Below the pieces are notes generated by a model. That model was not told the origin of the DNA, ran no database searches, and saw only the letters and a program-made list of their open reading frames with translations. A program made the translations under genes and the position numbers. Below are positions 311-32,747 of a DNA stretch of 32,811 nt, in pieces (position 1 is the first letter of the stretch; every line of letters starts with the position of its first letter). The stretch comes from an uncultured Schlesneria sp. (lineage in GTDB: Bacteria; Planctomycetota; Planctomycetia; Planctomycetales; Planctomycetaceae). Where the stretch lies: contig CAIVEI010000089.1 in NCBI GenBank assembly GCA_903904835.1, positions 1 to 32,811 of the forward strand, written 5' to 3'.

Positions 311-1852
311 TCACTTGTTGTTGATCGTAGTTCCAGGCCAATCGTCGGTACGGAATGGTGTCAGTGGCAGTCCCGCTCCGTCGAACATGTTCACAACAGG
401 GTTATCAGCCCATCCATAACGGACTGCGACTGGGTTGGCAACTTGATCGCTCGATACTTCAATCGTGTTATCTTTCAGCACGTTTGCGGTTGCCCAGACG
501 AATTTCTTGTCTTCACCCGCGATGGCGAATCCGCGTGGTTCCTTAACGTCGAACGGGCGCCAGCCACCGTCAACATAATCGAACGTGAGCACAATCTTGT
601 TATCGGCCTTAGCCATCGATTTGTATTGCGGGCTATGGAACGGAACGGCCACTCCGTAATCCTTGGCCAGGGCCCAGCGAGCGAGACGTCGACCAACATC
701 AACTTTGTTTTTCGGGTGAATATCTTTCCCTTCGCCGATGTCGATGATCACTGCTTCGCCGGTCTTCGGCAATTTCGACATCGTCATGGTCTGGGCTTCA
801 CGTAATTCGGCCCAGGCGCTTTCAACAGGTTGGGGTTGTTCGTTCTGGAAGTCAGCCAGTTGAGCCCAATAGAACGAGAAGTCCCCTTGACCCCAGTCAT
901 CACGCCAGTTCTTGATCATCAACGGAAACAGGTCGCGGTATTGGTAGGCTCGTCCAGCGTTTGATTCTCCCTGATACCAGATTGCCCCTTTGATCCCATA
1001 ACCAATGTGTGACTTCAGCACACCGTTATAAATGTTCGCCGGACGGCTGTTGCCCCCCATTTGATTCTGCAAGCCCTGGAGCTGCTTCTTCTGTTCGTCG
1101 TTGAGGTCCGTTCCTTTTGCGACGAGCTCAGCATATTTGGATTCCATCTGAGTCCAGCGGTCCATCAGCGGCTTGTAGAGTGGATCGGCATTCAGAACAT
1201 CACGACGAATCCAGGCTTCACAGGCAGAACCACCCCAGGCATTGTTGATCATCCCCACGGGAACACCCAGCGTTTGGTGGAGCTGCCGAGCGAAGAAATA
1301 TCCGACGGCGGAGAAACCACCGACGGTTTCGGGCGTACAGACCATCCACTTGCGATCGTCATGACTCCACTTGACGTCTTGCGTGCCGACTTGTGGAAAG
1401 TTGATCATCCGAATCTTCGGATATTTTGCAGCCAGTTTTTCGATATCGGGGTCATTTGCATTATTGACCGACCATTGCATGTTCGATTGACCGGAACAGA
1501 CCCAGACTTCGCCAACCAACACATCGGAAAACTTGATCTCGTTCTTCCCTTTTACGGTAAACGCATAAGGACCGCCGACCGGAACGGGATCGATGAAGAC
1601 ATGCCACGTACCGTCTGCGGCCGCAGTTGCCGCATGGCTTTGCCCGTTGATCGAAACGGTGACCGCTTCACCCGCTTCTGCCAATCCCCAGACCTTGTTC
1701 CGTTGTCCCTGCTGAAGAACCATGTGATCCCCGAAGACATTCGGCAGTTTGACATCGGCATGCGCTGACGAGCCAATAAATACCGCTGCTATGGCAACAG
1801 CGAGCCATCCATTTCTCTTTGCCATGGTTCGTAATGTGATCCCGATCCGCAT
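311..1852 (-). CDS. Secreted sialate O-acetylesterase (SGNH-type, SASA family)
   Basis: This 513-residue protein matches sialate O-acetylesterases, which remove O-acetyl groups from sialic acids or other acetylated sugars. A hydrophobic export signal ends near the Ala-His-Ala at residues 30-32. An N-terminal beta-rich region contains HMVLQQ. The serine motif GQSNM is at 121-125, with Ser123 the predicted nucleophile. IWYQGESN lies at 291-298, and DIHP at 377-380 supplies the expected Asp and His379. The annotated start is chosen because AAGGAG sits 8 bases upstream; a second Met at residue 10 would give a shorter signal peptide but lacks such a site. The gene is divergent from the phosphatase at 2183 and appears monocistronic. 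The polysaccharide substrate cannot be told from sequence; in this kind of organism an acetylated plant or algal sugar is as likely as sialic acid. Confidence 0.88.
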   Translation of the reverse strand: MRIGITLRTMAKRNGWLAVAIAAVFIGSSAHADVKLPNVFGDHMVLQQGQRNKVWGLAEAGEAVTVSINGQSHAATAAADGTWHVFIDPVPVGGPYAFTVKGKNEIKFSDVLVGEVWVCSGQSNMQWSVNNANDPDIEKLAAKYPKIRMINFPQVGTQDVKWSHDDRKWMVCTPETVGGFSAVGYFFARQLHQTLGVPVGMINNAWGGSACEAWIRRDVLNADPLYKPLMDRWTQMESKYAELVAKGTDLNDEQKKQLQGLQNQMGGNSRPANIYNGVLKSHIGYGIKGAIWYQGESNAGRAYQYRDLFPLMIKNWRDDWGQGDFSFYWAQLADFQNEQPQPVESAWAELREAQTMTMSKLPKTGEAVIIDIGEGKDIHPKNKVDVGRRLARWALAKDYGVAVPFHSPQYKSMAKADNKIVLTFDYVDGGWRPFDVKEPRGFAIAGEDKKFVWATANVLKDNTIEVSSDQVANPVAVRYGWADNPVVNMFDGAGLPLTPFRTDDWPGTTINNK

Positions 1853-3912: not shown

Positions 3913-5952
3913 GTGGAAAGTCTTGCCCGATTAATTCCGTTCGTTCTCAGGCAGCGTAGAACGCTGATCCTGTCTGTTGTGCTGTCCGTCGGTGCTGCTC
4001 TGTTCGCTGTGGCTCAACTCTCGCTGGTCTACCCGGCCATGAAGCTGCTGCTCGAGGGGAAAACTTACGATCAGCACGTCAGGACAGAACTTGAGCGGGC
4101 TAATGCCGCTGTTGAGAAAGAGTCGAAGCGACTGGCCGAAATCGAATCGACGTTGCAAGATCCAGAATGGCAAAAGGCGAATTCCGATGAAGCGAAATCA
4201 GAACTTCGGCGAGATCAACGTAAAACTCGCGAAGATTTAAACAAGGGACAGTGGGACGTCGTCAGGTTTAGCTGGATCGATGCCCATGTGCTTCCATTTC
4301 TTCCGACAGACTCGTTCAACTTCCTCGCATTTCTGCTGGCGGTACTGCTGGTGTTCACGTTGTTTAAAGAAACCTGTTCGTACTTTCAGGAAATGTGCGT
4401 CGGCAGCGTTGTCCAACGGGTGATGCAGTCATTAAGACAACAACTGTTTCGCAACACGCTGAAGCTGGACCAGCAGACGCTGGCGCTTGAGACAACGCCG
4501 CAATTAATGTCGAGGTTTACCTTCGATCTGAATCAGGTCGCACATGGAATGGTGTTGCTCGGTGGAAAGATCGTTGTCGAACCGATTAAAGCCGCTCTTT
4601 GTATTGGATTCGCATTTGCTGCCAATTGGCGTTTGACGCTGCTGGCATTTATTTGTGCTCCAATCATGGCCTGGTTATTCGGCGGATTGGGAAAGAAGCT
4701 GAAGAAGGCGACGCAACGGCAGATGGAAAGCATGTCTCGCCTGTATCGCGTGCTGGATGAGACGTTGACGTCGTTTCGCGTTGTGCAGGGTTTTCAAAAC
4801 GAACGATTGCACCGACGCCGATTGGCTCAGGAACACCGAACCTATTACGACAAGGCAATGCGAATTCTACGAATCGATGCACTCGTCAGCCCGAGCGTTG
4901 AATTTCTGGCAATGTGCGCCGTGTTCATCGCATCGCTTCCTGGCACATATCTGGTTTTGCGACACAAGACGTCAATCTGGGGGATACAACTTGCCGCCGA
5001 ACCGATGACGGTTTCGGATCTTTCATTACTTTACACCTGTATGGCCGGTGTGCTCGATCCGGGGCGTAAACTGTCGGGCGTTTACTCAAAACTGAAGAAG
5101 TCGGCTACAGCCTGTGCGAGAGTTTTCGCCTGGATGGATCGCGATTCTCTCGTCAAATCGACTCGACCGTTCACCCCGATACCTCGCCACAGTCAGGCAA
5201 TTGAATTTGATCGCGTCACGTTCCACTACGCTCAGCTTGATCCCAATTCGCTTGGCCGAAAAGCGCTCGACGACGTTTCGGTCAGGATTCCGTTTGGAGC
5301 GACGGTGGCTGTGGTGGGAGACAATGGCTGCGGCAAGTCGACCCTGGTCAACCTGTTGCCCCGGTTCTTCGATCCTCATTCGGGACATGTCCGGATCGAC
5401 GACGTCGATCTGAAGGATGCCGACCCGTCACAATTGCGAGCGCAAATCGGCGTTGTCACGCAAGAGACATTGCTGTTTGACTGGTCGATTGCCGAGAACA
5501 TTCGTTACGGAAAACCCGACGCGACGGACGGCGAAATTCAGACGGCCGCTGATAAAGCTCATGTGACCGATTTCATCAGTCAATTGCCAGACGGAATGCT
5601 GACACAAATCGGCGATAAGGGACACCGATTATCGGGCGGCCAACGCCAGCGCGTGGCCATGGCCAGAGCCATCTTGCGAGACCCGGCAATTCTGATTCTC
5701 GACGAAGCAACATCTGCGATCGATACACAAAGCGAGCAGTTGATCCATCAGACGCTGCTTGAATTTACGCGAGGCAGAACGACATTCATCGTGACGCACG
5801 CAATGACGCCCAGTTTATTAAACATTGTCACGCATGTCCTGGTCATGGACCAGGGCCAGGTCCTTTCGTTCGGTGATCACGAAACCGTCTTGAAGGCCTG
5901 CCCACAGTATCAAAGACTATTCCAAGCCCAGACGCTGAAACGGGCTGGCTGA
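3913..5952 (+). CDS. MsbA-like ABC exporter, fused membrane and ATPase domains
   Basis: This is a half-transporter of the lipid/multidrug exporter type, expected to act as a homodimer in the inner membrane. Membrane segments occupy roughly the first 400 residues, and the ATPase domain follows. The nucleotide-binding motifs are complete: Walker A GDNGCGKST, Q-loop VVTQETLLFD, signature LSGGQRQR, Walker B ILILDEATSAID and the H-loop histidine in IVTHAM. GTG at 3913 is preferred because AGGGA lies 8 bases upstream. A TTG in frame at 3895 would add six residues but has no ribosome site. Between the first two membrane segments is a charged, heptad-like stretch of about 60 residues (nucleotides about 4060-4250), longer than in standard MsbA. 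The cargo is not predictable from sequence. The 212 bases upstream hold no gene. Confidence 0.9.
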   Translation: MESLARLIPFVLRQRRTLILSVVLSVGAALFAVAQLSLVYPAMKLLLEGKTYDQHVRTELERANAAVEKESKRLAEIESTLQDPEWQKANSDEAKSELRRDQRKTREDLNKGQWDVVRFSWIDAHVLPFLPTDSFNFLAFLLAVLLVFTLFKETCSYFQEMCVGSVVQRVMQSLRQQLFRNTLKLDQQTLALETTPQLMSRFTFDLNQVAHGMVLLGGKIVVEPIKAALCIGFAFAANWRLTLLAFICAPIMAWLFGGLGKKLKKATQRQMESMSRLYRVLDETLTSFRVVQGFQNERLHRRRLAQEHRTYYDKAMRILRIDALVSPSVEFLAMCAVFIASLPGTYLVLRHKTSIWGIQLAAEPMTVSDLSLLYTCMAGVLDPGRKLSGVYSKLKKSATACARVFAWMDRDSLVKSTRPFTPIPRHSQAIEFDRVTFHYAQLDPNSLGRKALDDVSVRIPFGATVAVVGDNGCGKSTLVNLLPRFFDPHSGHVRIDDVDLKDADPSQLRAQIGVVTQETLLFDWSIAENIRYGKPDATDGEIQTAADKAHVTDFISQLPDGMLTQIGDKGHRLSGGQRQRVAMARAILRDPAILILDEATSAIDTQSEQLIHQTLLEFTRGRTTFIVTHAMTPSLLNIVTHVLVMDQGQVLSFGDHETVLKACPQYQRLFQAQTLKRAG

Positions 5953-8240: not shown

Positions 8241-8268
8241 CATGATCCGCGATCGATCGCGGATTATG
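8241..8268. promoter_or_regulatory. 28-base near-perfect palindrome
   Basis: ATCCGCGATCGATCGCGGAT at 8245-8264 is a perfect 20-base palindrome. Adding four bases on each side (CATG and TATG) gives 28 bases with a single mismatched pair. It lies about 95 bases upstream of the minus-strand gene starting at 8146. It could be a dimeric regulator site or a structural element. No other copy was noticed in the window. Confidence 0.5.
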
Positions 8269-8503
8269 CCAACAAATCAGGACTATTCACGATAGCGAGT
8301 TATTTTTTTTAAGTCATCGTGGACATCTCGATAACCCCACGATGGCCTTTGTCAACCGTGGATTTCGATTGAACCACGCTCAATCGCGTTCGGCGCAGTT
8401 CGTACAATCGTGGCCCAGCTTCCAATCGTGCTTGTCATTCGCGCAAGTTGGAAGGCCGGCCATTCTGTCGTTCCCCACTTTCCCATCTCGCTCGCGACCA
8501 ATT

Positions 8504-8695
8504 GTGATGAGTTCATCATTGGCGTTGCTGATCCAATTGCGCTCGGTCGCCCCGGTTGGGGCTTTTCTCTTGTTTCTCGCTCCTGTCCTGGGGCCGAAAC
8601 CGCCCCAGGCTTTATTCGGTCGCCGCCTCTGCGGCTCAAAAACTGATCATCAATCGGAAAAACGATTTTCATGAGCACCTTCCAAACGTTAAGAA
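8504..8695 (+). repeat. Three-hairpin dispersed element, copy 1
   Basis: Hairpin 1 is GCCCC-GGTT-GGGGC (8549-8562) followed by TTTTCTCTTGTTT, which looks like an intrinsic terminator. Hairpin 2 is CCTGGGGC (8587-8594) with GCCCCAGG (8602-8609). Hairpin 3 is GCCGC-CTCT-GCGGC (8622-8635). The words TCGGTCGCC and TTTATTCGG link them, and the copy ends GCACCTTCCAAACGTTAAGAA. The inverted partner is at 32545-32747. Confidence 0.7.
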
Positions 8696-8890
8696 CCTAC
8701 TCAGCCTTTTCCATTGACAGGCTAATTGTCAATTTGTATTTTTTTGTCGTAGTTTTGTTTTTCGCATTCATTGGCTACAGATAGGCGGCATCCCAGGGGT
8801 CGATGCGGCCAGGGCGTGGCCTTGAGAGAGCAACGAGTAGAAGGGTCAGGGCAATGATTTCTATTTTCATCTGACCTACATTCCACTCTT

Positions 8891-8933
8891 CGACTTTCTC
8901 CAGATCAACTCTCTAGCCGATTCGGCTCACCCC
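8891..8933 (-). repeat. S-type repeat, diverged inverted copy
   Basis: The segment from CGACTTTCTC through GATCAACTCTCTAGCCGATT to CGGCTCACC aligns with the reverse complement of the 48-base repeats at 31304-31351 and 31431-31478, with roughly one difference in every six bases. It carries the same AGCCGATTCGGCT-type palindrome. Confidence 0.5.
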
Positions 8934-8943
8934 GTCGTCCGTT

Positions 8944-9049
8944 GGGACAAACAACCGGGAAAGGCGGCTCTTAAACACGGAGCCGGTCCCAGTTGTGTTC
9001 CGTCCAATAGGAGGCGAAGGGCGATCCGTGGCGGTTCGTTGTTTGTCCC
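8944..9049. repeat. 11-base inverted repeat with 84-base spacer
   Basis: GGGACAAACAA (8944-8954) and TTGTTTGTCCC (9039-9049) are perfect inverted copies. The spacer and the right flank both carry AACACGGA followed by G or A and CC. No reading frame inside looks like a gene. Confidence 0.4.
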
Positions 9050-9109
9050 TTGGGTGCGGTCGGTCCGGTACAGGGTCAGCGGAACCGCTGCAAAACACGG
9101 AACCTAATC

Positions 9110-9290
9110 GAAGTCGATCGAACTGTGTCAAACTCGATCGAACTCGGGGGCGACAAAAAGATGACCAAAACCCTATGAATTACGAGTAATGGTCGAAGTC
9201 GATCGAACTTTGACATCAAATTTCTTGGCGGCTCGATTTCAGTGAAATACAGAGGAAGACTTATGAACAGAAGGACACCAAGGTAACGGT
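9110..9290 (-). repeat. TTCGA-rich dispersed element, inverted copy
   Basis: On the minus strand this segment carries, in order, CCTTCTGTTCA, TTTCACTGAAATCGAG, GTTCGATCGACTTCGACCAT, TCGTAATTCATAGGGTTTTG and CGAGTTCGATCGAGTT. The same order of words appears in the tandem array at 31480-32160, closest to its third unit. Confidence 0.65.
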
Positions 9291-9406
9291 GTGAAGAAAT
9301 CAGCGGCTATCAAGTGGATCGTAGTTGGCCAACTTTATCGATGTTTCGGTGGGACTTCGAAGACTTGTCCTCGCCCTACTTTTGCATTGGGTATTCGATC
9401 AGACTG

Positions 9407-9643
9407 CATAGTTGCGCAAACTTTCAGACGCCTGAAAAGTTGAAAAACGACTGTTTTCCGCCATAGTTGCGCAAACAACTCCCATAGTTGCGCAAATCCT
9501 GTCATCGTCGAGCTGCGGTGACATACGAGATCGGCGACTGGAAGTCGCCGCTACGGCGCATTCATAGTCGCGCACCATCGTTGCGCAAACTTTTAAACGC
9601 CTGAAAGGTCGAAAAACGACTGTTTTTTCCATAGTTGCGCAAG
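9407..9643. repeat. Cluster of CATAGTTGCGCAAAC repeats
   Basis: Six copies or near copies occur at 9407, 9462, 9483, 9563, 9576 and 9630, each built on the palindrome TTGCGCAA (GTCGCGCA in the fourth). A longer unit of about 69 bases is duplicated: 9407-9476 and 9576-9643 share CGCCTGAAA, GAAAAACGACTGTTTT and both end repeats. Between them is a hairpin GGCGACT/AGTCGCC (about 9532-9548). The cluster lies downstream of the mgtC-like gene, about 160 bases from its stop. Confidence 0.65.
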
Positions 9644-9800
9644 TTCTTGAGATTAAAGTGTGACGATTAGACGAACAATCGGGGGATTGTCATGGCTCAG
9701 TTCACCTGGTCAACGCGCGAACGGTTGCCCTATTTTGAACCCGTCATCCGACGCGCATCAACCGGCTGTGCCGGGTCGGAAGACGAAGAGCAACGGGGGC

Positions 9801-10490
9801 TTATTGGATCCGCTCCCAACTGACGCTGGTGACGCTGGGTTCGATACTGATGCGGGAAACGAGATCGTTAAGAAATTTGTCATTTCTGGTCGTGCAGTGC
9901 ACTTCGGCAACGACGGATGTTTCGTCGGGCGCATCTTCATCTTGTTTGGTGATCCCTTGAATTGCTGAATTTGGATCGGAATTTACGTGTCGCAGCAGAA
10001 CCAGCCGGATCACTCCTTCATTTTGTTTGTCGCAGAGGACACGAATTCGGTAAAGCATATCGACATCCTGTGATGCTCGTGCTTGTGCGTCAATCAATTG
10101 CACGAGTGGACGTAGAGCCAGATGCACGAAGAGGACGGTTGCCGTTCCCAGTGCCGCTTGCAAGACGTATCCCGCGCCCGCCATCGTCCCGACGGCAGCA
10201 CTGCACCAAAGGGTCGCCGCCGTATTCATGCCACGAACGTTAAAGCCCTCGCGAAGAATCACACCTCCACCAAGAAACCCGATACCGCTGACAATCTGGG
10301 CTGCGATACGGGTCGAGTCACTTTCGTGATCCATATGCGACAGAGACACAAACATGGCCGCACCCACACAAACTAAAGCGTTGGTTCTTAAGCCGGCCGT
10401 GTGTTGGCGAAACTGGCGTTCCGATCCAATCGCAACTCCCATCACCAGAGCGGCTCCGGTATTCATCAGAAACGTTAGTCCGTCGTGCAT
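9801..10490 (-). CDS. MgtC/SapB-family inner membrane protein
   Basis: The protein has the MgtC/SapB signature near its start: GAALVMGVAIGSERQFRQH followed by AGLRTNALVCVGAAMF. Several hydrophobic segments run to about residue 140, including SGIGFLGGGVILREG and NTAATLWCSAAVGTMAG. A soluble C-terminal domain of about 85 residues follows, resembling the ACT-like tail of longer MgtC proteins. Family members are linked to growth in low magnesium and to ATP synthase control; simple ion transport is not established for them. The start at 10490 is chosen because typical family members begin a few residues before the first membrane segment and AGGG lies 9 bases upstream. Longer starts at 10529 (ATG) or 10559 (TTG) are possible. 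The gene is divergent from that at 10836; no magnesium riboswitch was recognised between them. Confidence 0.85.
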   Translation of the reverse strand: MHDGLTFLMNTGAALVMGVAIGSERQFRQHTAGLRTNALVCVGAAMFVSLSHMDHESDSTRIAAQIVSGIGFLGGGVILREGFNVRGMNTAATLWCSAAVGTMAGAGYVLQAALGTATVLFVHLALRPLVQLIDAQARASQDVDMLYRIRVLCDKQNEGVIRLVLLRHVNSDPNSAIQGITKQDEDAPDETSVVAEVHCTTRNDKFLNDLVSRISIEPSVTSVSWERIQ

Positions 10491-10582
10491 GTTTTCGGCC
10501 CTATTTTCATGTTGGTTTTGACTGATCATTTGTCCCGCAGTGTCTCTGCAAGCACTCAAGGACGAACACTGATCGGGAGCAT

Positions 10583-27724: not shown

Positions 27725-30700
27725 ATGTTAGCCCGCTTTTTTATCGACCGGCCAGTCTTCGCGATTGTCATTTCGCTGGTCATCGTCTTCGCCGGCATCA
27801 CGGCATACTTCACTCTTCCCATTGCCCAATACCCCGAGATCACCCCTCCGACGGTTGAAGTCTCATGCAGCTACCCAGGCGCCAGTGCCAAAGTCGTGCA
27901 GGAAACGATCGCCGCCCCCATCGAACAGGAAGTCAACGGCGTCGAGAAGATGCTGTATATGTCGTCCCAAAGCACCAATGACGGCGGCTACAAATTAAGC
28001 GTCACGTTTAAACTTGGTACCAATCTTGATATGGCCCAGGTGCTCGTACAAAACCGGGTCGCTCTCGCTCTGCCGAAATTGCCCGACGTTGTTAAAACGA
28101 CTGGCGTCAGTACGAAGAAGAAATCCCCCAGCATCCTGCTCGTGGTCAACCTGTATTCCGACGTTGACGAATCTACCGGACTTCCAAAGTACAGCCAGTT
28201 GTTTCTCAGTAACTACGCCACGATTCAGATGCGTGACGATTTGCTGCGTATCGACGGAGTGGGGGATGTGACTTATCTGGGTCAACAGGATTACAGCATG
28301 CGAGCCTGGCTGGACCCTGAAAAAATGGCCTCACGAAATCTGACGGCAGGTGACGTGGTCAACGCCCTGAAAGAACAGAACATTCAGGTGGCGGCAGGTC
28401 GAGTCGGCCAGCCACCAGCCCCCAAAGGGATCGATTTTCAATATACCCTGACGACACTTGGGCGACTGACCGAACCATCAGAATTCGGACAGATCATCGT
28501 CAAAACAGGCAGCTCCGGTCAGCCGACACGCCTCGGTGAAATTGCCCGACTGGAACTGGGTGCCAAGAACGAAGATACGTTATGCACGCTCGACGGAAAA
28601 CCTTCGGTCGGTATGGCCATCTATCAGATGCCTGGCTCAAACGCCCTGGAAACCGCGAAGCGGATCAGGAAAAAGGTCGCGGAACTGGAAACCCGTTTCT
28701 TCGACGGAATGCACTCCGCCATCGTCTACGACACGACTCCCTTCATCGAAGAATCAGTCAACGAAGTTTTCAAAGCATTGCGCGATGCGGTCATCCTGGT
28801 GGCGATCGTCGTTCTGCTATTCCTGCAGGACTGGAAGTCCATGACTCTTCCGATGATCGATGTTCCCGTTTCCTTGATCGGAACGATGGCCGTGATGTGG
28901 TTGATGGGATTCACCCTGAACAACCTGACTCTGTTCGGCCTGGTTCTAGCCATCGGTATCGTCGTCGATGATGCAATCGTTGTGCTGGAAGGAATCGAAC
29001 GCTGGCTCGAAAAAGGCTATGACGCGAAAACCGCAACGATCAATGCCATGAACGAACTGACCGGACCCATTATCGCCATCACCCTGGTGCTTAGTTCCGT
29101 ATTTCTTCCCAGTGCCTTGCTGCCAGGAATCAGCGGACAGTTCTATCGCCAGTTCGCACTCACGATCTCGGTCTCGATGATCATCTCGGCCATCAATGCT
29201 CTGACGATGACTCCGTCTCGTGCCGTCCAGATCTTTAAGAACCGGCACCACGGACATGACGACCGCGAAGCCCTGCCGTGGTGGGGCTACGTGGGACTGT
29301 TGGGTTGGGCCAGTGCCTCATGGTTAAAGCCGATCGTCGTGCCAATGCTGCATCTTCCCGACGAAGAACTTGTCGGCTGGGGTGTCTGGATTCTGCTTTG
29401 CCTGCCGGGTGCCATCTTCGGCTGGCTGATTGCAAAATGGTCAAACCGCTTCCTTTCCCGTTGTTTCAAACTGTTCAATCGTGGCTTCGACTGGGTCACG
29501 CGTGTTTATGGTCGCGTGGTCACGGGCATGCTTCGTGTCAGCACACTGGTCATGCTGGTCTATGGCGGGCTGCTGGCCCTGACTTACATGGGACTCACCC
29601 GAACACCCATCGGGTTCATCCCGTCGCAGGACAAGGGATACCTGCTGGTCAACATGCAACTCCCTGACTCTGCATCACTCGAACGCTCGATCGATGTGCT
29701 GAAACGAGTGGAAAAGATTGCTCAGGAAACTGACGGCGTCAAACACACCACCGGGATCGCCGGACAGTCGATTGTCCTGAATGCGGTCGGTTCGAGTTTC
29801 GGTTCGATGTTCGTCATTCTCGACGAATTCCATCACAGGCGCAGCCCGACATTGAGTGCCAACGCGATTGCCGCTCAGCTAAGAAAACGATTGTTCAATG
29901 AAATCCTTGATGCTCAGGTCGCCGTGTTTGGTGCTCCCCCCGTCGATGGCCTCGGTTCTGCCGGGGGCTTCAAACTGATGATCCAGGATCGAGGCGACCA
30001 GGGTCTGTTCGAATTGCAGGACCGAGCCGACCAGGTGGCGTTTCAGGGAAATCGCCAACCGGGGATCGTCGGAATGTTCAACAGTTTCCGGTCAGATACG
30101 CCTCAGCTTTACATTGATATCGATCGGACCAAATGTAAATCACTCGGGGTTCCACTGAATGACGCCTTTCAAACATTGCAGACATATCTGGGCGGTTACT
30201 ACGTCAACGACTTTAACCAGTTTGGCCGGACATGGCAGGTGAACCTTCAGGCAGACGCGCAATTCCGCATGCACGCTGACGATATTCGGGCACTGAAGGT
30301 CCGGAACAACGAAGGGAAAATGGTTCCCCTGGGAACATTGGCCACAGTGGAAGACATCGGCGGGCCGATCATGATCACTCGTTACAACATGTATCCCGCC
30401 GCACCCATCAACGGAGGTTCGCTCCCGGGGGTCAGTTCTGGCGATATGATCGCTGCTGTCGAGCGGGCCACAAGTTCCGAACTGAGCGGAACGATGCAAC
30501 ACGAATGGACCGAATTGACCTTCCTGCAATTGCAGGAAGGAAGTGCGGCATTGTATGCCTTCATCGGAGCGATCATCCTCGTCTTCCTGGTCCTGGCCGC
30601 ACAGTACGAAAGCTGGTCGATGCCGATGGCCGTGCTGCTGGTGGTTCCCATGTGCCTGCTGAGTGCCGTGATCGGACTGTGGATGACTCATCTGGATATC

Positions 30701-31096
30701 AACATCTTCGTGCAAGTCGGTTTCATCGTGCTGGTCGGCCTGGCCGCAAAAAATGCGATCCTGATCGTCGAAACCGCACGGGAAAGGCATCATGCCGGAG
30801 CATCGATCCAAGAAGCGGCACTGGAAGCGGCAAAAGAACGATTGCGACCGATCGTCATGACGTCGCTCGCCTTCATCCTGGGTGTCGCCCCGCTGGTCAT
30901 CTCGCACGGTGCAGGAGCTGAGATGAGGCAGACACTCGGTATCGCGGTCTTTTCCGGGATGCTGGGAGTCACCCTGTTCGGGATTTTCCTGACCCCCGTG
31001 TTTTACAGCGTCATCGAACAACTGGGCGGACGAAAACATCCTGAACCGACGCCGACACCAGAGCCGGCCGTAACCGTTCCCCCGGAAGGCCATTAA
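27725..31096 (+). CDS. RND multidrug efflux pump, HAE1 family (AcrB type)
   Basis: This 1123-residue inner-membrane pump exports hydrophobic compounds using the proton gradient. It begins with the family opening FFIDRPVFAIVISLVIVFAG. The proton relay is intact: Asp415 and Asp416 in GIVVDDAIVVLEG (AcrB Asp407/408) and Lys1009 in GLAAKNAILIVETA (AcrB Lys940). The porter domain shows PIAQYPEITPPTV and VQNRVALALPKLP as in AcrB. AcrB has 1049 residues; most of the excess here is a stretch at about residues 500-590 between the two membrane halves. It includes two added hydrophobic segments, WGYVGLLGWASASWL and LVGWGVWILLCLPGAIFGWL. The C-terminus ends in a proline- and threonine-rich tail. It is paired with the adaptor gene just upstream. 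Confidence 0.94.
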   Translation: MLARFFIDRPVFAIVISLVIVFAGITAYFTLPIAQYPEITPPTVEVSCSYPGASAKVVQETIAAPIEQEVNGVEKMLYMSSQSTNDGGYKLSVTFKLGTNLDMAQVLVQNRVALALPKLPDVVKTTGVSTKKKSPSILLVVNLYSDVDESTGLPKYSQLFLSNYATIQMRDDLLRIDGVGDVTYLGQQDYSMRAWLDPEKMASRNLTAGDVVNALKEQNIQVAAGRVGQPPAPKGIDFQYTLTTLGRLTEPSEFGQIIVKTGSSGQPTRLGEIARLELGAKNEDTLCTLDGKPSVGMAIYQMPGSNALETAKRIRKKVAELETRFFDGMHSAIVYDTTPFIEESVNEVFKALRDAVILVAIVVLLFLQDWKSMTLPMIDVPVSLIGTMAVMWLMGFTLNNLTLFGLVLAIGIVVDDAIVVLEGIERWLEKGYDAKTATINAMNELTGPIIAITLVLSSVFLPSALLPGISGQFYRQFALTISVSMIISAINALTMTPSRAVQIFKNRHHGHDDREALPWWGYVGLLGWASASWLKPIVVPMLHLPDEELVGWGVWILLCLPGAIFGWLIAKWSNRFLSRCFKLFNRGFDWVTRVYGRVVTGMLRVSTLVMLVYGGLLALTYMGLTRTPIGFIPSQDKGYLLVNMQLPDSASLERSIDVLKRVEKIAQETDGVKHTTGIAGQSIVLNAVGSSFGSMFVILDEFHHRRSPTLSANAIAAQLRKRLFNEILDAQVAVFGAPPVDGLGSAGGFKLMIQDRGDQGLFELQDRADQVAFQGNRQPGIVGMFNSFRSDTPQLYIDIDRTKCKSLGVPLNDAFQTLQTYLGGYYVNDFNQFGRTWQVNLQADAQFRMHADDIRALKVRNNEGKMVPLGTLATVEDIGGPIMITRYNMYPAAPINGGSLPGVSSGDMIAAVERATSSELSGTMQHEWTELTFLQLQEGSAALYAFIGAIILVFLVLAAQYESWSMPMAVLLVVPMCLLSAVIGLWMTHLDINIFVQVGFIVLVGLAAKNAILIVETARERHHAGASIQEAALEAAKERLRPIVMTSLAFILGVAPLVISHGAGAEMRQTLGIAVFSGMLGVTLFGIFLTPVFYSVIEQLGGRKHPEPTPTPEPAVTVPPEGH

Positions 31097-31447: not shown

Positions 31448-31478
31448 TAGAAAGTTGATCCGTAGAAAGTGGAAAGTA
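31431..31478 (+). repeat. S-type repeat, second 48-base copy
   Basis: Identical over 48 bases to 31304-31351. It directly abuts the first unit of the tandem array starting at 31480 and supplies the right arm of the hairpin at 31418-31447. Confidence 0.75.
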
Positions 31479-31479
31479 T

Positions 31480-32160
31480 TTGTTCGAAAAGTTCGCACGA
31501 CTTCGAGCATACCCTATAATTCATGGGCTTTTGGCGATCATCCTTCGTTTTGTTGTCACTAAAAAGTTCGCGCGACTTCACCTGAGTTCGACCGACTTCG
31601 AACCCCATTGCGGCTGTTGTGCGAGTGGTCACCCGACCCGATACAAACGACCGACCGAAGTCTCCTCTGATTTTCTTCTCCTCGTTAACTTCGTTGCCTT
31701 CTGTTCAAATCCTTCCAAATTTCATTGAAATCAAGTTGCCACGTCATTTGTTCGAAAAGTTCGCACGAGTTCGACCATACCCTACAATTCATGGGCTTTC
31801 GGCGACCATTCTTTGCTTTGTCGTCACTAAAAAGTTCGCGCGACTTCACCAGACTTCACCTGAGTTCGACTGACTTCGAACCATATCTCTGCGGTTGTGC
31901 GAGTGGTCACCCGACCCGATACAAACGACCGACCGAAGTCGCCTCTGATTTTCTTCTCCTCGTTAACTTCGTTGCCTTCTGTTCAAATCCTTCCAAATCT
32001 CATTGAAATCAAGTTGCCACAGCATTTGTTCGAAAAGTTCGATCAAGTTCGATCGACTTCGATCATTCCTCGTAATTCATAGGCTTTTCGCGATCATTCC
32101 CCCGTTTTTTGGGGGTGTTCGAGTTCGTTCGAGTTCGACGCAGTTCGATCAAGTTCGAAT
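31480..32160 (+). repeat. Tandem array of TTCGA-rich units
   Basis: Unit A (31480-31747, 268 bases) and unit B (31748-32025, 278 bases) both begin TTGTTCGAAAAGTTCGCACG and are nearly identical. Unit B has a duplicated ACTTCACCAG-type word that explains its greater length. Unit C (from 32026) begins the same way but diverges into GTTCGATCAAGTTCGATCGA and ends in a TTCGA-rich stretch to about 32160. In unit C a CCCCC/GGGGG hairpin lies near 32099-32116. The left copy at 9110-9290 is in opposite orientation. Confidence 0.75.
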
Positions 32161-32544: not shown

Positions 32545-32747
32545 TTCTTAACGATTGGAAGGTGCACAGGAAATCGCTTTTTTTAGCCCGAATGAAAAAC
32601 GTGAGTCGATTCTTAAGCCACATCGTGGCGACCGAATAAAGCCAGGGGCGGTTTCCGCCCCTGGAAACGAACCACAATGAAACAGAAAAGCCCCATTCGG
32701 GGCGACCGAGAATGGTTTATCCAATTGAAATTGGTTCGATTCATCAC
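32545..32747 (-). repeat. Three-hairpin dispersed element, copy 2 (inverted)
   Basis: Read on the minus strand it has hairpin 1 GCCCC-GAAT-GGGGC (32690-32703) followed by TTTTCTGTTTC, hairpin 2 CCAGGGGCGG-AAA-CCGCCCCTGG (32642-32664), and hairpin 3 GCCAC-GAT-GTGGC (32617-32629). It ends GCACCTTCCAATCGTTAAGAA (32545-32565), matching copy 1 at 8675-8695 except for one base. Stems 2 and 3 differ from copy 1 by paired changes that keep base pairing. Confidence 0.7.

Follow-up and report, generated by a model that had tools for sequence, protein, structure and literature searches.

A three-hairpin repeat of Schlesneria, probably a REP/BIME-like DNA element linked to an IS200-like Y1 transposase

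The window analysed here, by which we mean the whole stretch of 32,811 nucleotides of contig CAIVEI010000089.1 from an uncultured Schlesneria sp. (Planctomycetota; assembly GCA_903904835.1), contains two copies, A and B, of an element built of three hairpins (H1, H2 and H3), the two copies being inverted with respect to each other. Our analysis indicates that the element is probably a REP/BIME-like, non-autonomous DNA repeat of an IS200-like Y1 (HUH) transposase of the Y---Q--HH type. What we observe are its copies, their layout and pairing, their inverted flanking of and co-occurrence with the transposase gene tnpA, and one site of presence and absence. Both copies are found by R1, a covariance model built from 29 copies with A and B among them, and their parts are as follows:

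8541..8645, + strand: three-hairpin module, copy A (model R1, 97.6 bits, E 7e-26)
8545..8548, + strand: GGTC, candidate guide or foot tetranucleotide 5' of H1, copy A, proposed from foot counts
8549..8562, + strand: H1, copy A, GCCCC-GGTT-GGGGC, followed by TTTTCT (terminator-like)
8587..8609, + strand: H2, copy A, CCTGGGGCCG-AAA-CCGCCCCAGG, with one C-C mismatch; first hairpin of the match to Rfam family RF01687
8622..8635, + strand: H3, copy A, GCCGC-CTCT-GCGGC, with GGTC just 5'
32607..32711, - strand: three-hairpin module, copy B (model R1, 115.1 bits, E 9e-31)
32690..32703, - strand: H1, copy B, GCCCC-GAAT-GGGGC
32642..32664, - strand: H2, copy B, CCAGGGGCGG-AAA-CCGCCCCTGG
32617..32629, - strand: H3, copy B, GCCAC-GAT-GTGGC

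An earlier note on this DNA had described inverted copies with a common hairpin order at 8504-8695 and 32545-32747. The observation itself is confirmed, while the interpretation put upon it is partly supported. The hairpin module does lie inside those stretches but with the narrower limits given above: 8504-8540 is hardly common to both copies, and the last 20 bases at the 3' edge (8676-8695 and 32564-32545) begin a separate repeat, P, so that what was noted as one element is the junction of two repeat families. Within the module, one short hairpin occurs twice in the same direction, as H1 and as H3, mostly with GGTC on the 5' side, and the longer H2 stands between the two. The foot of H1 is GGTC in 16 of 28 copies, GGCC in 3 and CGTC in 2; that of H3 is GGTC in 21 of 29 and GGCC in 6; H2 has no common foot, the most frequent tetranucleotide there being GTAT (5/29). 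The loops had been said to differ freely, which does not hold for H2, where the loop is AAA in both window copies.

The module is far from confined to the window. A 221-base query laid over copy A gave 44 matches in the window's own genome, falling into two groups (hairpins and P), and R1 finds 36 copies there. Two further genomes of the same genus have 52 each, and R1 matches occur in 18 of the 59 genomes searched, other families of the class included, with search filters that, for sets of more than 40 genomes, lose some weak matches. Five inverted module pairs in the own genome are free of genes (contigs C128, C129, C1, C104 and C209) with spacings of 34-77 bases, and one further inverted pair, on contig C17, encloses a transposase gene. 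The family thus consists of multi-copy palindromes, often in inverted pairs, as REP and BIME families do, and the absence of further copies, which would have told against the earlier note, is not what we find. In one relative (G005, contig C128, 1-5500, stretch L184) eight R1 modules stand in a row with alternating orientation around a transposase gene and other open reading frames, and it is possible that this row represents tandem composite units. Our literature search found no paper on a noncoding intergenic repeat family in Schlesneria or Rhodopirellula.

The paired base changes pointed out earlier between the two window copies, CCT/AGG to CCA/TGG in H2 and GCCGC/GCGGC to GCCAC/GTGGC in H3, are real, and they recur throughout the family. 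Across the 29 copies, 94% of the H2 and H3 alignment cells pair, and 28 cells carry double changes where shuffles yield 8.7 +- 2.4, none of 500 shuffles reaching 28; when the pairing partners are slid along, at most 5 double-change cells are left. With 85 distinct copies the corresponding values are 95.3% paired cells, 100 double changes against 19.2 +- 3.8 in shuffles (0/500 reaching 100) and at most 15 with partners slid, figures from an alignment that was fitted to R1 and is therefore biased towards structure. The stems thus stay paired in the further copies, and together with the 44 query matches the excess of double changes over shuffles rules out a chance origin of the copies. At the third pair of H2, the 85 copies have T-A 53 times, A-T 19, C-G 9 and G-C once, with T-A and A-T both occurring inside single genomes. 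For H1, a first count held the 3' arm at GGGGC and so was blind to double changes; a recount with the best-pairing placement gives some, by a method that leans to pairing, and we infer nothing from H1. Template switching, in which one arm of a palindrome is copied onto the other, can yield double changes too. The earlier reading of these changes as the mark of selection on structure therefore stands as far as pairing is kept, but paired changes alone are not proof of selection.

The association with a transposase is seen most directly on contig C17 of the own genome (L071), where modules at 505-612 (-) and 1301-1406 (+) surround a gene at 735-1202. Its product of 155 residues matches Y1_Tnp (PF01797) with 75 bits (cut-off 23), NF033573 (IS200/IS605) with 55.2 bits (cut-off 55) and the ISHp608 TnpA chain with E 1.7e-4. 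The tyrosine motif reads YIRDQELHH, the Y---Q--HH signature, and in the HUH motif the first His is replaced by Gln (DQIH), the homologue in L184 having DHIHIL. Going by motif, the flanking genes would be placed in TnpA subclass 1.2 of Quentin et al. 2018: they carry Y---Q--HH and HUH (DQIH on C17), and among 49 tnpA loci the two motifs occur in 45 and 46 respectively. Inverted R1 modules likewise enclose the homologous gene of G005 (L184), and in two genomes of another family they lie very near tnpA, 10 and 15 nucleotides away in L185 (G057) and 9 and 15 nucleotides away in L186 (G049); in G002 (L187) one module flanks tnpA inside the stretch examined. The Y1 gene is accordingly flanked by its own repeat family, as in the REPtrons discussed below.

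Genomes with tnpA homologues have 1 to 8 of them, the own genome having 8. In six of these eight (L067 and L069-L073) the gene lies between long inverted flanks whose sequence is particular to the locus; these score 79-125, where shuffles never exceed 27. R1 modules stand on a single side of L068, and L074 has none. L073 (contig C81, 131127-131471) is a shortened Y1 frame, matching 5-120 of 160, with its long inverted hairpin flanks kept. Among 79 genomes of the class, homologues were found in 31, and 30 loci were examined, 28 of them with enough flank. By the rule that an inverted-flank score be at least 50 and more than 1.5 times the best of 30 shuffles, 19 of the 28 have inverted flanks, and 14 of these have at least one arm that, together with the adjoining 60 nucleotides on the gene side, contains three or more hairpins (counted when GC-rich and of at least 5 pairs). 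The usual order, judged by eye, is short - long - short. Homologues on Bacteroidota plasmids have inverted flanks as well, in Persicobacter (L229, 46 against 24) and in Bernardetia (L230, 67 against 30); a similar hairpin layout is seen by eye in the former, which has an RF01687 match of 35.7 bits, below the cut-off, and not in the latter.

The own genome also contains Y1 genes of other types. Those of class-2 type (L075-L078) show no long inverted flanks, their scores being 16-30, with a 20-base repeat in L075 scoring 30 against 21 in shuffles; at L081 there is an inverted repeat of 25 bases (50 against 24). Beside the class-2 type gene of L078, at 553-627 (-), lies a match to the group II intron family RF00029 (42.3 bits, cut-off 40). 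A Y---NP type gene on contig C19 (L080) is flanked by inverted copies of GTAGGGTGGGTCGAGTC... (108 against 28), a sequence with the look of a GTAG-type REP.

The earlier note knew of no named family with this layout. H2 and H3 of copy A do match one end to end: 8587-8636 aligns with positions 1-46 of the 46 of the Rfam family Acido-Lenti-1 (RF01687), at 25.9 bits. The gathering score of that family is 37 bits, so that Rfam at its gathering threshold gives no match over the window and the weak match appears only with permissive filters; copy B gives none up to E 0.1. Copy A has the two hairpins of 8 and 5 pairs, about 12 nucleotides apart, that characterise the family, and since the window copies score below 37 bits we regard them as relatives rather than threshold members. 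Related modules do pass: a same-family copy in G005 scores 38.8 bits (L267 2432-2480, equal to C128:5368-5416, inside an R1 match at 5359-5465), L068 of the own genome has matches of 44.4 and 38.5 bits on one side, and modules flanking tnpA in other families score up to 54.1 bits. Other Rfam candidates, RF02866 ncS16 (24.2 bits, cut-off 48), mir-3179, ceN49 and SNORD15, were far below cut-off.

For RF01687 we scanned 49 of 51 tnpA loci, omitting L212 (the same place as L185) and L287 (weak and IS200-like). An RF01687 match at E up to 0.1 lies within 250 nucleotides of tnpA in 29 of the 49, on both sides in 15 (L185 among them) and in mirror orientation in 14; H3 is directed away from tnpA in 42 of the 53 nearby matches. 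The cut-off of 37 bits is reached by 28 of these matches, spread over 15 loci. RF01687 is found in 31 of the 59 genomes, above cut-off in 26 of them, with at most 81 copies per genome, and in none of 14 control genomes. Among the 59 genomes, 26 have both RF01687 and tnpA, 5 only RF01687, 4 only tnpA and 24 neither (Fisher p 6e-8); with tnpA taken at E below 1e-20 the numbers become 25, 6, 2 and 26 (p 6e-9). Since the module family sits mirrored around a transposase gene, Acido-Lenti-1 may really be mobile DNA. The stronger proposition, that it is not primarily an RNA and corresponds to the inner two hairpins of the three-hairpin, mirror-image DNA end of TnpA subclass 1.2, a distinct branch of the Y1 transposases, seems to us evenly poised. 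Acido-Lenti-1 has reportedly been noted near group II introns. In the literature searched, supplements being outside its scope, we found no paper linking it to a transposase.

One site records a change in the modules themselves. At the orthologous site of the own-genome pair on C104 (L025), the flanks in G002 are separated by only 34 nucleotides, with no module between them, in G005 a decayed right half is all that is present, and the aligned genomes G006, G008, G013 and G014 have no module; G007 and G010 match both flanks (unaligned), and the flanks of G001 lie on two contigs. The site shows gain or loss of modules, not mechanism or exact ends. With the many copies, the inverted pairs and the modules around a Y1 gene, it bears out the suggestion, already made in the earlier note, of a REP/BIME-like, non-autonomous mobile unit.

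How could such a unit move? In IS608 and in TnpA-REP, a Y1 transposase binds hairpins folded in single-stranded DNA and the tetranucleotide on the 5' side acts as guide (PMC6006769, PMC8266576). By analogy with these two systems, from which binding, guide role, cleavage, movement and the single-strand route are all carried over, the full unit here would consist of mirrored modules (H3-H2-H1 ... H1-H2-H3) around tnpA or around a short spacer. When the region becomes single-stranded, as in the lagging-strand template, the hairpins would fold and be bound by TnpA, the tetranucleotides 5' of H1 and H3 would guide the choice of cleavage site, and TnpA would excise the unit or copy it elsewhere. Because H1 and H3 both carry the GGTC foot and H2 has none in common, H1 and H3 would be the recognition hairpins, with H2 serving as a spacer or as a hairpin that positions the dimer. 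Solitary modules, including the two in the window, would be leftovers or half-units.

Several known systems resemble what we describe. The REP, BIME and REPIN repeats of TnpA-REP (RAYT) and the REPtrons (PMC2817692, PMC3116915, PMC8266576, PMC3733652, PMC6006769) share with it short palindromes in many copies and inverted pairs, a repeat family of its own flanking each transposase gene, and a tetranucleotide 5' of the hairpin. However, the module here has three hairpins where theirs has one, its foot is mostly GGTC or GGCC and not GTAG or GTGG, and its transposase is of the Y---Q--HH type and not class 2 (Y---NP). Since a GTAG, GTGG or CGTC foot is lacking, we call the family REP-like and not a member of the tagged super-families; the foot counts rule out membership in the GTAG or CGTC REPs. 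The TIRYT/TIRtrons and GTAG/CGTC REPs of Di Nocera et al. 2013 (PMC3733652) likewise have inverted repeats around Y1 genes. The CGTC REPs, as described in that paper, vary to TGTC, start their 8-9 bp stems with A-T pairs and have no known transposase; TGTC feet were seen by eye, uncounted, among the class flanks, whereas only 2 of 28 copies here have CGTC at the foot of H1. With the IS200/IS605 elements (IS608, ISDra2; PMC6006769, PMC8266576) the system has in common the Y1 HUH transposase and hairpin ends with 5' guide tetranucleotides, but the end hairpins of those elements are not in mirror image, whereas here we find mirrored ends of three hairpins and many gene-less copies. TnpA subclass 1.2 has the Y---Q--HH signature and is close to IS200 TnpA, and according to Quentin et al. 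2018 (PMC6006769) it generally lacks typical IS200 end structures; in contrast, its members in the window's class and on the Persicobacter plasmid (L229) have inverted multi-hairpin flanks. RF01687, finally, agrees in the structure, order and spacing of two hairpins with H2 and H3; Rfam files it as small RNA, with a model that has no H1 and names no transposase. We conclude that there is a real, widespread, transposase-linked three-hairpin DNA repeat, a variant of REP/BIME-like systems.

Several points weigh against this interpretation. Nearness to tnpA is also compatible with a role of transcribed hairpins. The window's two modules are solitary. The tnpA on C17, the exact-family gene of the own genome, may be inactive here, since the first His of its HUH motif is missing. 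By the rule used, 9 of the 28 class loci have no inverted flanks; 20 of the 49 scanned loci have no RF01687 nearby, and above-cut-off matches are limited to the 15 loci. In the own genome RF01687 is not matched at L069-L074 (E up to 0.1), and its matches at L067 are below cut-off (35.1 and 34.6 bits). No tnpA was detected in 5 of the 31 RF01687 genomes, while 4 of the 28 genomes without RF01687 have tnpA, and the Fisher value overstates independence, because the genomes are related.

Could the module instead be a structured non-coding RNA, the Acido-Lenti-1 small RNA of Rfam, with selection at the RNA level and the nearness to tnpA incidental? The stems do covary, H2 and H3 match RF01687 end to end, and Table 1 of Weinberg et al. 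2010 (PMC2864571) rates Acido-Lenti-1 probably an RNA ('y') and not cis-regulatory, with Acidobacteria and Lentisphaerae as its taxa. According to a 2026 paper (PMC13298647), its function is still little known. We nevertheless think this explanation unlikely. The mirror orientation around tnpA in 42 of 53 matches and the up to 81 copies per genome speak against it, as do the third hairpin and the inverted pairing of modules, which exceed the two-hairpin Rfam model. Selection on RNA favours G-U pairs. On the module strand, the H2 and H3 mismatches include 19 G-T and 19 A-C (13 and 10 in H2, 6 and 9 in H3), and because the two are equally frequent, folded DNA fits better than RNA, a ratio judged without a true RNA as yardstick. 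The small-RNA reading of the earlier note is further weakened by a promoter scan of 8250-9000, whose single predicted site lies downstream of the module, within P.

A second alternative, which could hold alongside a transposase-linked repeat, is that the module is an intrinsic terminator, possibly bidirectional, that has spread as a gene insulator. A scan of 8250-9000 finds 3 terminator-like sites against 1.0 +- 1.1 in shuffles, with calls at H1 + TTTTCT and at H2 + CTTTATT, and H1 with its T-tract may additionally end transcription. As the explanation of the family we consider it improbable, since it does not account for the inverted pairs, the fixed order of three hairpins, GGTC at the foot of both H1 and H3, the family-specific flanks of tnpA or the double changes in H2 and H3.

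If the module is indeed a hairpin end used by a Y1 transposase, it would represent a third hairpin-based single-strand mobile system beside IS200/IS605 and the GTAG REPtrons, one in which two guide-tagged short hairpins stand around a long one, and which occurs in Planctomycetota and on at least one Bacteroidota plasmid. Two loose ends would be joined, an RNA family of little-known function and a transposase subclass without typical ends, and the identity of Acido-Lenti-1 becomes testable. The annotation of RF01687 would then have to change to mobile DNA, suggestions that it has a regulatory effect on neighbouring genes would need re-examination, and subclass 1.2 TnpA would gain a defined substrate for binding and cleavage. 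More generally, covariation, usually taken as evidence for RNA, would here mark folded single-stranded DNA.

The repeat P, which follows both modules in the window, has these features:

8676..8695, + strand: repeat P, copy A, conserved 20-mer CACCTTCCAAACGTTAAGAA, imperfect palindrome TTCnnAACGTTnnGAA
8714..8742, + strand: promoter-like part of P, copy A, TTGACA-17-TATTTT
32545..32564, - strand: repeat P, copy B, CACCTTCCAATCGTTAAGAA
32521..32526, - strand: -35-like hexamer TTGACT of P, copy B

It is very improbable that the module serves P as a functional component on its 5' side (regulator-binding or insulating) and that its copies spread with P, and the independent distribution of the two largely refutes this. 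Six strong modules of the own genome do lie within 250 nucleotides upstream of P (contigs C89 twice, C177, C158, C51 and C74), and the ten copies of alignment A2 that have H3 GCCAC, six of them in relatives, are without exception P-linked. But a strong module is absent from that position at 38 of the 44 P loci of the own genome (one has a weak match, 27.9 bits), P is missing beside 17 of the 23 strong modules in the stretches examined, and modules occur in 18 of 59 genomes against 4 for the P pattern.

P spans 8676-8760 (+) and 32564-32480 (-) in the window and has 44 loci in the own genome. Its layout is a near-invariant 20-mer, a TTGACA-like hexamer, a -10-like TANTTT and ATGTCG. In 89 of 99 P loci the hexamer lies 17-19 nucleotides past the 20-mer; shuffles often produce a match somewhere within a 20-base range (1301 of 1980), but not at a fixed place. 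The exact pattern occurs 31 times in the own genome and 15, 21 and 16 times in three relatives of the same genus, thus in 4 of the 59 genomes, with none in the other 55 and none for the reversed pattern. The 18-mer of P is found in 52 named stretches, 51 of which are contigs of metagenome-assembled genomes of Schlesneria (Planctomycetota); the remaining one, a Nitrososphaeraceae contig (L146) in which the promoter part is missing, is put down to chance or a stray contig. P is not the promoter of one gene family, the genes beyond it differing and lying on either strand (by eye, at inspected loci), and the supposed open reading frames with MNYEEWSKS downstream belong to a repeated module that is non-coding, some of its copies having stops.

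The DNA downstream of P, over some 1 kb or more, is made up of modules that are mostly non-coding and keep a set order and strand (window 8760-9690, +, and 32480-31100, -); it is perhaps a long non-coding RNA or an array of binding sites. At 21 of 48 loci the P strand has a 12-mer from a 67-base module, which the other strand has at 0, one module is restricted to P's 4 of 59 genomes, and several have palindromes of the frame AGTT-n-AACT. In L110 (3274-4186) a tandem array of a 160-base unit, 5.7 copies with 88% matches, lies downstream of P, and in the window repeats at 31478-32052 are spaced 268-278 bases apart. Near the module copies, the window encodes an MgtC/SapB family protein (9801-10559, -) and an AcrB-type (RND) transporter (27725-31096, +).
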